Assembly (NCBI RefSeq): GCF_013911085.1
Contig: NZ_JACERN010000023.1
Coordinates: 1 to 64,000 of the forward strand
Length of the DNA stretch: 64,000 bases
From: Aquitalea aquatica
Lineage (GTDB): Bacteria > Pseudomonadota > Gammaproteobacteria > Burkholderiales > Chromobacteriaceae
Direction of reading: 5' to 3'
Part shown: in pieces, positions 6,822-57,071 of the stretch
Layout of the letters: every line of letters starts with the position of its first letter
Position numbering within the stretch: position 1 is the stretch's first letter
Translations under genes and position numbers: made by a program
Notes under the pieces: generated by a model
What the model was told of the DNA's origin: nothing
The model's database searches: none
What the model saw: only the letters and a program-made list of their open reading frames with translations

Positions 6822-7147
6822 GCTTGTCCCTGTCTGAATGGCTGGTGGTGAAATGTGAAAAACACCCGCCGACTGTCAATGAGGCGGGGGGGTGGCGTCA
6901 AGCCCGCACACCGGCGGCGTAGTGGCAGGGTGGGTCTGCCACCATGCCGTCACACAAGGACGGGGCATTGAAAATGCATGAAACTGGCGTACTACCTGCG
7001 CCGTGAAGGTTGCCGCAATGCGGCAAAATCAGGGATAATTCCATGATTTAGCGGCGGTTAATCCATGCCAGCGCCATGCGCAGGCCTGAAATCACTGCCG
7101 TACCGGTTCTGTCCCGCCCCCTTTACTGTTTTTGAGGTTTTCCCGAA
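6822..7147. promoter_or_regulatory. tkt upstream region with promoter and palindrome
   Basis: This 326-base gap holds no convincing ORF. A sigma-70-like promoter for tkt is visible: TTGCCG at 7010-7015, an 18-base spacer and GATAAT at 7034-7039, giving a leader of about 100 bases. A perfect 7-1-7 palindrome, TGCCGCA-A-TGCGGCA at 7011-7025, overlaps the -35 and the spacer and is well placed to be an operator. The regulator is not known. Confidence 0.6.
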
Positions 7148-37982: not shown

Positions 37983-40721
37983 TCAGTGGTCCTGCAACAA
38001 GGCCAGCAAAGCCGCACCGTCCAGTTGCGCTGCCAGGTCGCCACCTTGCAGCAAGCTGTCGGCCAGTGCGCGTTTTTCCGCATGCAGGGCGACTATTTTT
38101 TCTTCGATGGTGTTTTCCGCCACCAGCCGGTACACGGTGACTGGCCGCTGCTGGCCCATGCGGTAGGCGCGGTCGCTGGCCTGGTCTTCCACCGCCGGGT
38201 TCCACCACGGGTCCAGATGAATCACATAGTCCGCGGCGGTGAGGTTCAGCCCGGTGCCGCCGGCTTTCAGGCTGATCAGGAAGACCTCGCCCTCGCCAGC
38301 CTGAAAGGCGTCCATGCGCGCCTTGCGCTGCTTGCCCGGCGTGGCGCCATCCAGATACTGGTAGGCAATGCCTTGTTCATCCAGCCATTGCCGCGCCAAG
38401 GCCAGATGATCGACAAACTGGCTGAACACCAGCGCCTTGTGGCCGTTGTCCAGCAGTTCGGTCATCAGCTGGCAGAAGAAGACAAACTTGCTGGCCGGCA
38501 GGGCAGTGTCTGGCTGCAACAGGGCCGGGTGACAACAGAAACGGCGCAAGCGGGTCAGCTCGGCCAGCACCTGCATGGTTTTCTTGTCCTGGCTATCCAC
38601 CTCGGCCAGCTTTTGCAGCGCTTGCTGGCGCATGGCCTCGTACACATGCAGCTCCTGCTCGGACAGGGGAATGCGGCGGGTGATGTCGGTGCGCGGTGGC
38701 AGCTCGGTCAGCACCTCGGCCTTGGTACGGCGTAGCAGATAGGGCTGGATCAGCGCCTTGAGCGTGGTACGGGCCTCTTCATCACCCTCGGCGATAGGCT
38801 GGGCAAAACGCTGCTGGAACTTGTCCTCATTGCCCAGCAAACCCGGCGTGACAAAGCGGAACAAACTCCACAATTCACCCAGATGGTTTTCCACCGGCGT
38901 GCCACTGGCGGCCAGGCGAAAATCTGCCCGCAGGCTTTGTGCCGCCTGTGCGCGTTTGGTAGCGGCATTCTTGATGGCCTGCGCCTCGTCCAGCACCACG
39001 CTGGCCCAGTGCACCTCGGCAAAATCATCGGCCTGCAATTGCAGCAGGCCGTAACTGGCAATCACCAGGTCCTGCGGCCCGACTGTGGATAAGTCGCGCT
39101 GCTGTTGATAAGGGCGCAAGCGCAGGCTGGGGGCGAAGCGGGCGGCCTCGGCCAGCCAGTTGAGCGCCACCGAGGTGGGGGCCACCACCAGCTGCGGCCC
39201 CAGATGTGCACGGTCCAGCAGCACGGCCAGCGTTTGCACCGTCTTGCCCAGGCCCATGTCGTCGGCCAGACAGGCGCCGGCCCCGATATGCGCCAGCCGC
39301 GACAACCAGGCAAAACCTTGCAATTGATAGGGCCGCAAGCTGGCCTGCAGGGTGGCCGGCACCTCAGGTTGAAACACGCGCAGGCTGTTCCGCTGTGCCA
39401 GCAATTGCTGCCAGCCGGCATCGCCCTCCATGCGATCGATGTCGCCTGCCAGTTCTGCCAGCGCCGGTGCCGCCAGCAGGCTCAAGCGCAGCCCGTCGGG
39501 CAGGGCGTGGTCGGCCAGCATGGCTAGCTGCTGCAGCCGGGCGACCAGGCTATCGGACAAGGCCAGCCAGTCCTGCTCGGACAGACGCAGATACTGACCG
39601 GGCTGATGGGCCAAGGCTTCCAGCAACTGGCGCAGCTGCAGCACACGGTCTTCGTCCACCTGCACCTCGCCGGTCACTTCCAGCCAGCCGTTCTTGCGCT
39701 TGGTCTTCAACCGCAGCTGCGGCAGGCCGGCCTGGGCCTGGATGCGCATGCGCTGTCCCTGCGGCCAGACGCACTCCAGCCGCTGCGGGGCGATGGCGTG
39801 TAGTTGCTGCACCACTTGCAAGGCCTGCTGCTGATCGGCCAGCAGCCATTGCAGTACCCCATCGGGGTCGGCCCGGGCTGCCGCCAGTGCCGGACAATCC
39901 TGCAACAAAGCTGCCAGCGCCTGTTTCTCCTCGCTCAACTGGCGCTGAAAGCGGATGGGCTGGCCTTGCTCCAGCGCCACTTGCTGCCATGGCCCGCGCC
40001 CCGGCGGATACCAGGCGGCCTGCTCGGCCACCCGGCAGCGCAGTTGCAGGCGCAAGCCTTCCGGCAGCGGTACCAGCACAGCAAACAGCCGTGGGTCGGC
40101 CGGCATGGCAGGCAGGTCCGCACCATCATCTGCCTCCACTAGCTCGACCGGCAGCCACGGCACCATGTCGCCTATCGCCTCCAGCAGTTTTTTGCGCGCG
40201 GCCAGTGGCACGGTCAGGCTGTGACCAAGCAAGGCTGCCAGCTGGCGAATCTCCGGCCCCGGCCAGTACACCAGCAGGCTGTTTGGGCCGCTACGCTGCC
40301 ACAGGCAATGCTGGCAGGCGGCAATGCCGGGCGGGCTCAGTTGCAGCACCATCTGCTGTTGCTGACGCTGCAGCAACAGGCTGATCTGGCCCGCTTCCAG
40401 CATGACCGGCTGTGCCGGCTGTTCTTCCCAGAACAAGGCCGGATGACCCAGCAGCAAGGGCAGGGCGGCTTCGCCTTCCAGCTCGGCCAGGCTGCTGCCA
40501 TCCGCCAGCTGATGGGTGCGCTCAAGCTGGCCGATCACCAGCCGGTCCTGCGCACTCAGCCAGTCCCACTGCGCAGCCTGATCCAGCAAACGCCCCAGCG
40601 GCAGCATGCGGCCACGGCTCCAGCCGCTGCCTTCAGGCTGCTGGATGCATGGAGTGAGGCGGATGCCGGCTTCATTGGCCAGAATGCGCCAGGCCAGGCG
40701 CTGGGAGGTGGTGGTTTGCAT
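37983..40721 (-). CDS. SNF2/RapA-family DEAD-like helicase
   Basis: 912 aa. The C-terminal ~450 residues are a complete Swi2/Snf2 motor: Walker A DDMGLGKT, LVVAPTSVALNW, DEAQ box LDEAQAIKN, SGTPVENHLGELWSL, and in the second lobe VFSQFVDHL, LISLKAGGTGLNLTAADYVIHLDPWWNP and DRAYRMGQ. The N-terminal half lacks a recognisable SWIM zinc finger and is Gln/Leu-rich. Bacterial members move on double-stranded DNA; the role of this orphan form is unclear. Single gene. Confidence 0.9.
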   Translation of the reverse strand: MQTTTSQRLAWRILANEAGIRLTPCIQQPEGSGWSRGRMLPLGRLLDQAAQWDWLSAQDRLVIGQLERTHQLADGSSLAELEGEAALPLLLGHPALFWEEQPAQPVMLEAGQISLLLQRQQQQMVLQLSPPGIAACQHCLWQRSGPNSLLVYWPGPEIRQLAALLGHSLTVPLAARKKLLEAIGDMVPWLPVELVEADDGADLPAMPADPRLFAVLVPLPEGLRLQLRCRVAEQAAWYPPGRGPWQQVALEQGQPIRFQRQLSEEKQALAALLQDCPALAAARADPDGVLQWLLADQQQALQVVQQLHAIAPQRLECVWPQGQRMRIQAQAGLPQLRLKTKRKNGWLEVTGEVQVDEDRVLQLRQLLEALAHQPGQYLRLSEQDWLALSDSLVARLQQLAMLADHALPDGLRLSLLAAPALAELAGDIDRMEGDAGWQQLLAQRNSLRVFQPEVPATLQASLRPYQLQGFAWLSRLAHIGAGACLADDMGLGKTVQTLAVLLDRAHLGPQLVVAPTSVALNWLAEAARFAPSLRLRPYQQQRDLSTVGPQDLVIASYGLLQLQADDFAEVHWASVVLDEAQAIKNAATKRAQAAQSLRADFRLAASGTPVENHLGELWSLFRFVTPGLLGNEDKFQQRFAQPIAEGDEEARTTLKALIQPYLLRRTKAEVLTELPPRTDITRRIPLSEQELHVYEAMRQQALQKLAEVDSQDKKTMQVLAELTRLRRFCCHPALLQPDTALPASKFVFFCQLMTELLDNGHKALVFSQFVDHLALARQWLDEQGIAYQYLDGATPGKQRKARMDAFQAGEGEVFLISLKAGGTGLNLTAADYVIHLDPWWNPAVEDQASDRAYRMGQQRPVTVYRLVAENTIEEKIVALHAEKRALADSLLQGGDLAAQLDGAALLALLQDH

Positions 40722-43308: not shown

Positions 43309-43324
43309 CGTTTCACGTGAAACA
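43309..43324. other. parS: Candidate parS site (ParB/Spo0J binding)
   Basis: A 14-base perfect palindrome GTTTCACGTGAAAC at 43310-43323 in the 41-base gap between hemJ and the M48 gene. With flanks it reads CGTTTCACGTGAAACA, matching the widely conserved chromosomal parS consensus TGTTTCACGTGAAACA at 15 of 16 positions. ParB loads at parS and spreads to organise origin segregation; parS sites usually cluster near oriC. I found no second copy in the window. Confidence 0.85.
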
Positions 43325-53600: not shown

Positions 53601-54857
53601 TCAGGCAGGCAGATGCGCCTGCAGTAACTGGACAATGCGCTGGCTGGCACCACGGTGTGCTGCCGTAAATGCCAGCGCGGCGCTGTGCATCTGCTGACGA
53701 CGGGCTTCATCCTGCAACAGGCCCAGCGCCTGCTGCGCCAGGGCTGCAGCATCTGCCACTTGCCAGGCAGCGCCTGCCTCCAGCGCCAATTCACTGGCCT
53801 GGGCAAAATTGAACATGGACGGGCCAAACAGTACCGGCAAGCCCAGGCTGGCCGGCTCGATCAGATTCTGGCCACCCAAGGGCAGCAGGCTGCCACCAAC
53901 AAATGCCACATCGGCACAGCCGTAATAGGCGAACAGCTCGCCCATGCTGTCTCCCAGCCACAGGCTGGTGTCGGCAGCAATGGCGGCGTTGTCGCTGCGC
54001 CGCTGCACGGCCAGACCCATGTCCTGCGCCAGTGTGGCCACCGCGTCGAAGCGCTCGGGGTGGCGCGGCACCAACACGAGCAGGGTATTGCCGGCATTCG
54101 CCTGTTGCCAGGCCTGCAAGATGAGCGCTTCTTCGCCGTCGCGGGTACTGGCGCAGATGAATACCGGGCGCTGGCCGATGCGCTGGCGGAAAGCCTGCGC
54201 CAGCGTCTGCATGGCGGCGGGCGGGGTGAAATCGTATTTGGTATTGCCACAGACTTGCGGATCAACTGCACCCAACTGCTGCAAACGATCAGCATCTTGC
54301 GGACTTTGTGCAGCAATGGCAGTCAAACTGCGCAGGGCAGGCGCAATCAGCCCCTGAATGCGGCGATAGCCGCGCAATGATTTTTCCGACAACCGGGCAT
54401 TGGCCAGAAACAACGGCACCCCTTGCTGCTGTGCCGCATGCAGCAGATTGGGCCAGATTTCGGTTTCCATCAGCACACCAAAGCGCGGCTGCCAGCAGGC
54501 CAGAAAATCACGCACCGCAGCGGGATAGTCGTAGGGCAGGTAACGCACTTCGGCATCCGGATAAAGCTGGCGTGCGGTGTCGCGGCCGGTGGGCGTCATC
54601 TGGGTCAGCAGCAGCGGTGCATCCGGCCATTGCTGGCGCAGCGCCTGGATCAGCGGCAGGGCGGCGCGGGTTTCGCCTACCGACACGGCATGAATCCAGA
54701 TCGCACCGGTTGCCTGTGGCTGGCGGGCCTCACCGAAACGTTCATCCCAGTGTTGCAGATAGGCAGGCGCCTTGCGTGCGCGCTTTTTCAGGTAACGACG
54801 AATCAGCGGCATGGCAGCCCACCACAACAGCGAGTACAGCCCGCGCCGCCAGTTCAT
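53601..54857 (-). CDS. waaA: Kdo transferase WaaA (KdtA)
   Basis: 418 aa. Adds Kdo residues to lipid IVA at the inner membrane. An N-terminal anchor (LYSLLWWAAMPLIRRYL), IWIHAVSVGETRAALPLI, MTPTGRDTA, METEIWPNLL, NARLSEKSLRGY and the C-terminal GGSLLPLGGQNLIEPA are family hallmarks. The start overlaps the waaC stop (ATGA). Its end lies 124 bases before tetR. Confidence 0.95.
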   Translation of the reverse strand: MNWRRGLYSLLWWAAMPLIRRYLKKRARKAPAYLQHWDERFGEARQPQATGAIWIHAVSVGETRAALPLIQALRQQWPDAPLLLTQMTPTGRDTARQLYPDAEVRYLPYDYPAAVRDFLACWQPRFGVLMETEIWPNLLHAAQQQGVPLFLANARLSEKSLRGYRRIQGLIAPALRSLTAIAAQSPQDADRLQQLGAVDPQVCGNTKYDFTPPAAMQTLAQAFRQRIGQRPVFICASTRDGEEALILQAWQQANAGNTLLVLVPRHPERFDAVATLAQDMGLAVQRRSDNAAIAADTSLWLGDSMGELFAYYGCADVAFVGGSLLPLGGQNLIEPASLGLPVLFGPSMFNFAQASELALEAGAAWQVADAAALAQQALGLLQDEARRQQMHSAALAFTAAHRGASQRIVQLLQAHLPA

Positions 54858-55813
54858 GCCATGTCCTTGCGCGCCAGCAGGGCCTGCATCACCTCATCCA
54901 CCACCGGGCATTGGCCGATGCCGCCCAGATTAGTGGCCCAGGCGGTTTCCACCACGCCGGTCTTGCTGGGGTCGGTATCGGTATAAATGGCCACCAGCGG
55001 CACATTCAGCGCATTGGCCAGATGCGACAGGCCGGTATCCACCCCGATCACCGCACGGGCGTGGCCAAGCAAACCGCAGGCTTCCACCAGATTCATGCGC
55101 GGCGCCACCATGGCTTGTGGCATGGCAGCCGCCAGCCGCTCAGCCCGTTGCTGTTCTGCGGCATTGCCCCAGGGGATGATCAATTGCAGTCCATGCTCTG
55201 CCACCAAGCGTTCACCCAGCGCAATCCAGTGCGGTTCCGGCCATTCCTTGGAAGCGCGGCTGGTGGCATGCAGCAATACGGCGTATTGCCCTGCCGGCAG
55301 CCACTGCGGCCGCAGCGCCGCTGGTACGCCAAATTGCGGACTGCCTTGCGACTGGTAGCCAAATACCTTGGATAGCAGCAAGCGACAGCGCTCGACCGCG
55401 GACAGCGACCAATCGACACGGTGGGTCTTGTCATACAGCAGGCAGGCCAGCGGTTCGCGAATGCTCTGGCGGTCGTAACCGGTCAGTGGGGCCCCGCTGA
55501 GCTTGGCCGGCAGCGCACTTTTCAACAGCCCCTGGCAATCCACCACCAGCTCCCAGCGCGTAGCGCGCAGCTTGCCGCGCATGGCCTTGATTTCTGCCCA
55601 GGTAGCTGCGGACAGCAGGTTTTTGCGCCAGCGCCGCCAGGCCAGGGTAATGACTTCATCCACCGCCGGGTGCAAACGGGCGATGTCAGCGAAGTTTTCC
55701 TCGGCCAGCCAGCTGATACGAAGGTTGGGGTAGTGCGTTTTCAGCTCGGTAATGGCAGGCCAGGTGTGGATAAGGTCGCCCATCGACGAGGTACGCACGA
55801 TCAGTACGTTCAT
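54854..55813 (-). CDS. waaC: Heptosyltransferase I WaaC (RfaC)
   Basis: 319 aa from the ATG at 55813 (MNVLIVRTSSMGDLIHTWPA), which fits the E. coli WaaC start MRVLIVKTSSMGD; ATGs at 55816 and 55825 are also in frame. It transfers the first L,D-heptose to Kdo2-lipid A. HATSRASKEWPEPHW, WGNAAEQQRAERLA and IGVDTGLSHLANALNVP are diagnostic GT9 motifs. It forms a pair with waaA, and its upstream side is the DnaA-box-rich gap. Confidence 0.94.
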   Translation of the reverse strand: MNVLIVRTSSMGDLIHTWPAITELKTHYPNLRISWLAEENFADIARLHPAVDEVITLAWRRWRKNLLSAATWAEIKAMRGKLRATRWELVVDCQGLLKSALPAKLSGAPLTGYDRQSIREPLACLLYDKTHRVDWSLSAVERCRLLLSKVFGYQSQGSPQFGVPAALRPQWLPAGQYAVLLHATSRASKEWPEPHWIALGERLVAEHGLQLIIPWGNAAEQQRAERLAAAMPQAMVAPRMNLVEACGLLGHARAVIGVDTGLSHLANALNVPLVAIYTDTDPSKTGVVETAWATNLGGIGQCPVVDEVMQALLARKDMA

Positions 55814-55825
55814 CATGGCGCGCAT

Positions 55826-56312
55826 TGTAACCGAGCGTCGCTGTGGTTAACCACGTAAAATCCACAGGCAGCATTTGTGGATAAACTGCTGTGAATAATT
55901 TCGTCCATATTTATCCACAATCTGCCAGCCCTCCCGCCACCCGATTAATCCCAGTGCCATCAACAGGGCAAGCTACTGAGCAGATAACGGTTTTTCAGGG
56001 TTATCAACAGAAAAGCGCTGCTCTCATTAGTCTCTTCATAATAAAATTGGGCTTAAGATAACTAATTAGGACACGGCAAAAATGCGTATGCACAGACCGG
56101 AGTGGTCAAGTCTCTGACAGCATGTGGATAAACCCAGTCTGCAGCACATGACTAAAGTTATCCACAAAGGATCATGTCTTCAGCAATAGACTGACCAACA
56201 CCTTTCAAGCTGCAATAATTCATTGAATAAACTGGTAAATAAGGACTTATCCACAGAAAGTGGGCCTCTTCTACTAGTTTCTTCCATATACATATGGGAA
56301 TAACAAGAAAAG
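55826..56312. other. DnaA-box cluster, oriC-like intergenic region
   Basis: Six exact TTWTNCACA sites: reverse at 55876-55884, 55890-55898 and 56123-56131; forward at 55911-55919, 56158-56166 and 56247-56255. One-mismatch copies lie at 55842-55850, 56001-56009 and 56086-56094. An AT-rich stretch with TAAAATT, TTAAGATAACTAATTA and similar runs (about 56026-56072) could be an unwinding element. GTGGTTAACCAC (55843-55854) is a perfect palindrome. The region is markedly AT-richer than its surroundings, encodes nothing, and both flanking genes point away from it. Function as origin or DnaA-binding control locus is inferred. Confidence 0.75.
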
Positions 56313-57071
56313 ATGCGAGAACCGCTCAGCGTTGTGCTCATCACCAAAAACGCCGCTCTCCAGCTGGAAAAAACACTGGCCAGCGTGCAGTGGGCTGATG
56401 AAATCGTGGTGGTGGATTCGGGAAGTACGGATGAAACCGTAGCGATAGCTTCTGCCTATAAGGCGAAAGTTATCCACCAGGACTGGCTGGGATTCGGTCC
56501 GCAGAAGCAATTTGCGGTCGCTGCTGCCAGTCATGACTGGGTATTGTGTCTGGATGCAGACGAATGGCCATCGCCAGAATTGGTATTGCAAATCAAAGAG
56601 ATACTGAACAATCCACAGGCAGATGCCTACCGCTTTGCCCGCAGCAACCGTTTCATGGGCCGTTTTCTCAAGCATGGCGAAGGCTATCCGGACTGGAGCT
56701 TGCGGCTGTTTGATCGGCGCCGTGCTCGCTGGTCGGACGACCTGGTACACGAGACGGTGCAGACAGATTGCTCGGTGGAAAAACTGTCCGGCGACCTGAT
56801 GCACGAGTCGGGTGAGGACATCGCGCTGTATCTGACCAAGCAGAACCGCTACACCAGCCTGCAGGCGGAATTACTGTATAAACGCGGGAAAAAGGCGGGA
56901 TGGGCCAAGCTGGTGTTCAGCCCGCTGCTGCGCTTTGCCAAGTTTTACCTGGTACGCCGTGGTTTTCAGGATGGTTTGCCTGGTCTTGTCCACATCAGCA
57001 TTGGTTGCTTCAACAGCTATATCAAATACGCCAAGCTCAATGAGCTGCATCGTTTGGGAAACAGGAAATGA
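56313..57071 (+). CDS. WaaE/KdtX-type LPS core glycosyltransferase (GT2)
   Basis: 252 aa. GT-A fold: LSVVLITKNAALQLEKTLASVQWADEIVVVDSGSTDET and the metal motif in CLDADEWPS. SNRFMGRFLKHGEGYPDWSLRLFDR and DLVHETV are typical of WaaE/KdtX, which adds glucose to heptose I of the LPS inner core. Location next to waaC and waaA, on the other side of the intergenic cluster, supports this. The stop overlaps the next gene (ATGA). Confidence 0.88.
   Translation: MREPLSVVLITKNAALQLEKTLASVQWADEIVVVDSGSTDETVAIASAYKAKVIHQDWLGFGPQKQFAVAAASHDWVLCLDADEWPSPELVLQIKEILNNPQADAYRFARSNRFMGRFLKHGEGYPDWSLRLFDRRRARWSDDLVHETVQTDCSVEKLSGDLMHESGEDIALYLTKQNRYTSLQAELLYKRGKKAGWAKLVFSPLLRFAKFYLVRRGFQDGLPGLVHISIGCFNSYIKYAKLNELHRLGNRK

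Follow-up and report, generated by a model that had tools for sequence, protein, structure and literature searches.

A tandemly doubled DnaA-box module beside waaC is very probably the chromosomal replication origin of Aquitalea aquatica

The replication origin of Escherichia coli, oriC, is separate from dnaA and carries a TTATCCACA DnaA box that faces the unwinding element, with an IHF site nearby. DnaA boxes also occur away from the origin in sinks of the datA type. For the basal unwinding system a simple rule has been published: a DnaA box, a spacer of no more than 16 bp and at least three NAN trios (PMC8287927). In the parts of the accounts drawn on here, the incC region of Bacillus subtilis combines a box, a short spacer, a repeated trinucleotide tract and a distal box region (PMC6669920; PMC8287927). 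A study of basal unwinding published in 2023 describes the arrangement of dual helicase loading as not understood (PMC10721633). Closer to the present organism, an oriC with eight DnaA boxes has been predicted by Ori-Finder in its relative Laribacter hongkongensis, according to the portion of the report considered here (PMC3135505).

The DNA analysed here, which we call the window, is a stretch of 64,000 nucleotides from A. aquatica that makes up the leftmost part of the 209 kb contig C46. In our view there is little doubt that its interval 55876–56312 is the oriC of the chromosome. As shown in Table 1, the interval lies between divergent genes: waaC and waaA run leftward, while a family 2 glycosyltransferase gene, an epimerase gene and a GNAT gene run rightward, a layout already given correctly in the first-pass annotation of this DNA. 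That annotation had left three roles open, namely an origin separated from dnaA, a datA-like DnaA sink and a DnaA-controlled promoter for the lipopolysaccharide (LPS) genes; the first is strongly supported by the GC skew, the parS sites and the comparison of genomes.

Table 1. Features of the putative origin region and its surroundings (coordinates of the window or, equivalently, of C46).
Feature	Coordinates	Strand	Basis or remark
parS-like site CGTTTCACGTGAAACA	43309..43324	.	parS search; only one left of the origin site
waaC, LPS heptosyltransferase I, left neighbour	54854..55825	-	TIGR02193
One-mismatch DnaA box TTAACCACA	55842..55850	-	site scan; directly upstream of waaC, within conserved TGTGGTTAACCA
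Left module, box L1 (TTATCCACA)	55876..55884	-	exact
Left module, extra box TTATTCACA	55890..55898	-	exact; 14 bp past L1; no exact counterpart in right module
Left module, box L2	55911..55919	+	exact; 35 bp from L1
Left module, box L3, TTATCAACA	56001..56009	+	one mismatch; 90 bp from L2
Left module, trio-like tract (TCATTAGTCTCTTC) plus AT-rich DNA; candidate for unwinding	56022..56072	+	weak pairing
Right module, box R1	56123..56131	-	exact; 247 bp from L1
Right module, box R2	56158..56166	+	exact; 35 bp from R1
IHF-like site between R2 and R3	56216..56228	-	one mismatch to WATCAANNNNTTR; function inferred
Right module, box R3	56247..56255	+	exact; 89 bp from R2
Right DnaA-trio tract CTTCTACTAGTT	56268..56279	+	12 bp past R3; complement 3'-GAA GAT GAT CAA-5'
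AT-rich DNA from the trios to the glycosyltransferase start codon; probably the main site of unwinding	56280..56312	+	weak pairing
Family 2 glycosyltransferase, right neighbour	56313..57071	+	PF00535
Other parS-like sites on C46	64485, 77537, 102608, 109338, 170280		right of the origin site

DnaA boxes are clustered at this site far above chance. The six exact TTWTNCACA sites reported previously (L1, the extra left box, L2, R1, R2 and R3) all stand at the positions claimed and are packed into 380 bp. The accompanying statement that the window holds no other exact site was incorrect, as five more occur at 6854, 39084, 42269, 43465 and 55765. The last of these falls within the start of waaC, where it may be kept by the WaaC protein sequence; we leave it out of the modules. 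Likewise, the interval 55826–56312 contains four one-mismatch copies (55842, 56001, 56086 and 56295) rather than three. The 11 exact sites in the whole window compare with 2.15 (s.d. 1.40) in shuffled sequences, and a count of 11 or more was reached in none of 100 shuffles. Across the 4.46 Mb genome, six of the 33 exact TTATCCACA sites fall within the 491 bp from 55765 to 56255, for which a Poisson estimate assuming a uniform rate gives approximately 2e-13.

The region consists of two direct copies of one unit, 246–247 bp apart. The first-pass annotation missed this doubling, as well as the box–spacer–trio tract at 56247–56279 and the 35 bp box pair that is found beside dnaA elsewhere. Each module runs in the order box (-), 35 bp, box (+), 90 bp (89 bp in the right copy), box (+), a spacer of 12–14 bp, a trio-like CTTC-rich tract and AT-rich DNA. 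At an offset of 247 the two halves are identical at 81 of 196 positions, compared with a mean of 47 (s.d. 6.3) for offsets within 3 kb, and 247 is the best among all of the offsets tried, from -20,000 to +7,000. The imperfect box L3 of the left module is TTATCCACA in several relatives. The IHF-like site of the right module was recognized by comparison with WATCAANNNNTTR, which we take to be the IHF consensus; 0.17 such sites are expected in the 621 bp scanned.

Both modules are conserved. With up to three mismatches allowed per triple of boxes, both triples were found at 28 of 29 loci, comprising the window, 27 further loci (L013–L039) and the closed genome G016 from another genus; the 28 loci are related and include some near-duplicates. 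The only locus without the modules, L036, belongs to a metagenome-assembled genome labelled Methylococcales, with a glycosyltransferase identity of 55%, and is excluded from the 28-locus counts given below; its label places it outside the family. Both triples were also present at all 30 family loci of a second set (L091–L120), which overlaps the first. A stretch of 300–400 kb from each of five closed genomes contained exactly two triples apiece, all at the origin site. The distance between the copies is larger in some relatives, at 255–258, 309 or 337–340 bp.

Two candidate AT-rich unwinding elements adjoin DnaA boxes, predicted at 56022–56072 and 56268–56312. The AT-rich stretch at 56026–56072 to which unwinding had been ascribed is real (72% AT) and is kept as a candidate, but we reject it as the sole site, as a second weakly paired stretch sits behind the better trio tract. 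The 50 bp stretches starting at 56021 and 56265 are the fourth and fifth weakest-paired of the window, respectively. In the window, the right module satisfies the published trio rule with a 12 bp spacer and four trios, whereas the left tract does not. A trio scan of the whole window, allowing one mismatch in the box, returned two hits, of which the right-module tract is the better; the other, at 39092 (-), has zero GAT-like trios. The strict rule is satisfied by the right module at 11 of 28 loci and by the left module at 5 of 28, compared with 10–13% at random positions. The exact run of trios is therefore not what is conserved, and since strict conservation fails in most relatives we propose a candidate basal unwinding system for the right module of the window only. 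A box followed after 12 bp by [CG]TTCTAC is found at 23 of 28 loci; a relaxed version of this pattern matches at 27 of 28. The pattern of a box plus CTTCTACYA was matched in 13 of 399 genomes of the order, 11 of them within the family, which is weak evidence; of the two remaining matches, that in G386 resembled the box cluster of another genome and that in G244 a chance match.

The origin reading led the first-pass annotation to name a cumulative GC-skew minimum at about 56.0 kb as a check, and the minimum is found at 56,361. As the assembly comprises 48 contigs, this skew was computed over the first 164 kb of the contig (C46:1–164000), in which 8 kb bins are mainly negative to the left of the minimum and mainly positive to the right. 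Closed genomes of relatives were treated in the same way, each minimum being that of the stretch fetched. In G001, from the same genus, the minimum over 400 kb is at 1,155,390, approximately 120 bp from the cluster (1,155,513–1,156,003) and 132 kb from dnaA (1,287,005); the best single change point is at 1,155 kb (block bootstrap, 1,147–1,175 kb). Nineteen sparse 20 kb samples of this genome give one positive and one negative half, with a sign flip at 3.20–3.40 Mb, opposite the site, and a skew near zero in the sample at 3.84 Mb. The minimum in G016 (3,643,634) is 1 kb from the cluster (3,644,610–3,645,108) and 171 kb from dnaA (3,814,548), and that in G038 (146,035) is within 0.3 kb of the modules at 146,299 and 146,555, with dnaA at 1,129. 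In G059 the minimum is about 13 kb off the modules. G033 does not agree with an origin beside waaC: its skew is weak, and the minimum at 1,236,828 lies 88 kb away from the modules but within 14 kb of dnaA.

In the A. aquatica genome dnaA was located on another contig, C12, in the canonical order rpmH–dnaA–dnaN and away from the cluster. An origin at this position was considered and rejected: dnaA is accompanied by one exact box (51,327), the dnaA–dnaN gap of 53 bp holds no exact box, and the skew of C12 does not switch lastingly anywhere from 20 to 100 kb. Among 14 closed or nearly closed relatives, the site could be placed in 13, and between 76 and about 236 kb separate it from dnaA there; the glycosyltransferase orthologue served as its marker in twelve of these genomes and the boxes did so in G016. 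The distances for G022 and G041 cross the record end and are based on rounded lengths. In the remaining relative, G024, the site was left unplaced. Of the 13 placed relatives, ten were confirmed to carry both modules, with G017, G022 and G041 outside that check.

The distribution of parS-like sites points to the same region. When up to two mismatches were tolerated, a genome search for TGTTTCACGTGAAACA, which we take to be the parS consensus, matched at eight places, of which six carry the GTTTCACGTGAAAC core. All six of these are on C46, between 43,309 and 170,280 (Table 1), and the same search found zero on the dnaA contig; a reversed control pattern gave one match per strand. A stricter pattern was matched in five of the 14 closed or nearly closed relatives (G038, G041, G002, G004 and G024). 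G038 has three exact-pattern sites 8–20 kb from the glycosyltransferase gene, none of them closer than 125 kb to dnaA, and G041 has one strict site 10.5 kb from the glycosyltransferase gene. In G002 and G004 one strict site each is about 108 kb from the glycosyltransferase gene and more than 200 kb from dnaA, while that of G024 was not placed relative to the site.

Comparison across the order indicates where this arrangement may have come from. The exact inverted pair TGTGGATAA-N25..27-TTATCCACA occurs in 26 of 399 genomes, beside waaC in 13 and beside dnaA in 13; the reversed control had zero matches in the 399. The waaC-side pairs come from the family of the window (eight, from 13 genomes sampled) and from family f51 (five, from six sampled); the pattern is exact and 5 of 13 and 1 of 6 genomes, respectively, lack a match, so absence says little. 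The f51 pairs adjoin waaC in five of five cases and the glycosyltransferase gene in three of five (tblastn). The dnaA-side pairs come from three families (f42, f34 and f16) and lie within the dnaA–dnaN gap in all 12 measurable genomes of the 13, the gap being 185–226 bp in 11 of them, with a single longer one of 1,668 bp. In the two waaC families the gap is 22–105 bp and holds no exact box (12 genomes of the family of the window and six of f51, one of the latter, G289, having no exact pair). Two tandem triples are present at four of five f51 loci versus none of the 13 dnaA loci, among which L263 has two symmetric triples with one pair in common. As the box pair occupies the dnaA–dnaN gap elsewhere and the waaC families have a short, box-free gap, the most economical interpretation is that the origin seems to have left dnaA–dnaN for waaC in an ancestor of both families and doubled; we infer the direction of the move.

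The dnaA–dnaN origin site of f42, f34 and f16 thus shares with the present locus the inverted TTATCCACA pair 35–36 bp apart, in some cases with a third box about 88 bp further on, but is a single copy in the dnaA–dnaN gap, whereas here there are two tandem copies beside waaC. The locus resembles E. coli oriC in being apart from dnaA, in having a TTATCCACA box facing the unwinding element and in its IHF-like site; it differs in its doubled module and its neighbours and in not being rich in GATC (487 bp contain one, against 1.8 expected). With a single GATC in the interval, E. coli-like control by SeqA and Dam seems unlikely. With B. subtilis incC, as portrayed in the parts of the sources used, it shares the box, short spacer, repeated trinucleotide tract and distal box region (PMC6669920; PMC8287927), but boxes and a trio-like tract are present in each of the two copies here, and strict trio runs are not maintained in most relatives. 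The likeness to L. hongkongensis is to a prediction with DnaA boxes in a relative; the part of that report considered mentions no location, doubling or relation to dnaA (PMC3135505).

The alternative that the cluster is a datA-like DnaA-titrating locus, with replication starting elsewhere, is in our view very improbable. It would account for dense high-affinity boxes away from dnaA, and the only other cluster of four or more exact boxes in the genome, 11 kb to the right, shows that such clusters need not be origins. Titration as the only role does not explain why the site coincides with the skew minimum, the skew switching here and not at dnaA in C46, G001, G016 and G038, nor why a parS-like site is found on both sides; moreover, the identical box pair adjoins dnaA in other families, and a second cluster of four or more exact boxes is found nowhere but 11 kb away. 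Even less probable is a region that serves only the DnaA-controlled regulation of waaC and the glycosyltransferase gene, with no origin role. The boxes do lie between divergent LPS genes, and the conserved one-mismatch box is directly upstream of waaC, overlapping TGTGGTTAACCA (55842–55853; TGTG[GA]TTAACCA), an element strongly conserved at 25 of 28 loci. DnaA control of waaC is possible on this sequence evidence, as is a side effect of the origin on waaC expression. A consensus promoter scan, however, found one site versus 1.1 in shuffles, and regulation alone leaves the skew and the parS sites unexplained. The glycosyltransferase itself gives a further comparison. It is 98% identical to its Aquitalea palustris counterpart, and a relative is present in 61 of 61 family genomes searched, although only a distant one in several. 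In G016 the best match is 42% identical and located elsewhere in the genome, and a GNAT-like gene (named by eye) adjoins the cluster in its place. Both modules, the trio tract and the skew switch are nevertheless still present in G016 without the glycosyltransferase orthologue, which makes a promoter-only role unlikely.

If the site is the origin, initiation might proceed as follows. DnaA would occupy the high-affinity boxes, and a DnaA filament would nucleate at R3 (56247) and extend across the trio tract at 56268–56279. The AT-rich DNA at 56280–56312, before the glycosyltransferase gene, would then open, assisted by R1, R2 and a bend at the IHF-like site. Two DnaB helicases would load and forks would leave both ways. 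The left copy (55876–56072), in the same orientation, could serve as the half that loads DnaA, could itself be another site of opening, or could do both. We give about even weight to the view that the right module alone opens and that the left is purely a DnaA-recruiting half, by analogy with B. subtilis incC, which needs its distal box, thought in the part of the study consulted to act via a DNA loop (PMC6669920). That the right tract satisfies the trio rule in the window and the left does not speaks for this view. Against it, the left copy retains a box in the corresponding position, together with AT-rich DNA and a CTTC-rich tract related to the right one, and in the 32 bp after the third box the two copies are identical at a mean of 17.5 of 32 positions versus 12.8 (s.d. 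1.65) in shuffles, a statistic that is indicative only, as small shifts were allowed and the 28 loci are related. We suggest more tentatively, and with some doubt, that an old tandem duplication produced two functional unwinding modules facing the same way, which were kept in two families after the origin left the dnaA–dnaN gap; each may open DNA and help to load one helicase, or the two may back each other up.

An origin beside waaC would place that of the family (Aquitalea, Chromobacterium, Vogesella and kin) where a 'next to dnaA' rule would miss it, and would offer a natural case of a seemingly moved origin, whose former place shows a shortened gap, and of a doubled module. A two-unit origin could be used to test how the two replication machines are loaded and whether one module suffices. 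We found no description of the location beside waaC or of the doubling in the titles and abstract openings of the papers listed; DoriC may already predict the location.

Several further box arrangements were noted. The cluster 11 kb to the right (C46:66840–67089; L003:2840–3089) comprises four exact TTATCCACA boxes immediately downstream of thiC and is possibly a DnaA-titrating or reactivating site; box clusters or pairs are also present about 8–12 kb to the right of the site in several Aquitalea and Chromobacterium relatives. Same-orientation TTATCCACA pairs 29–30 bp apart occur in L017 (approximately +7970 to +8008 after the glycosyltransferase start), at G016:3636201 and G016:3619294 and elsewhere, and in some of these the first box, judged by eye, occupies the loop of a hairpin rich in G+C, with T-rich DNA after it, resembling a terminator that carries a DnaA box. 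In another family, L180 (G386:C13, about 157.4 kb) has a box with a CTTCTACTATTACTT tract and a second box 87 bp away, located in a gap; no waaC-like gene was recognized nearby by eye, and the site is maybe another displaced origin. Well away from the A. aquatica origin site, C6:80013–80048 (L009:5013–5048) holds two exact boxes in convergent orientation, separated by 27 bp, between genes that by eye are D-lactate-dehydrogenase-like and ABC-F-like ATPase genes. The same convergent pair is found in at least five of the 14 relatives (G001, G002, G004, G016 and G017) and may be a DnaA regulatory site.
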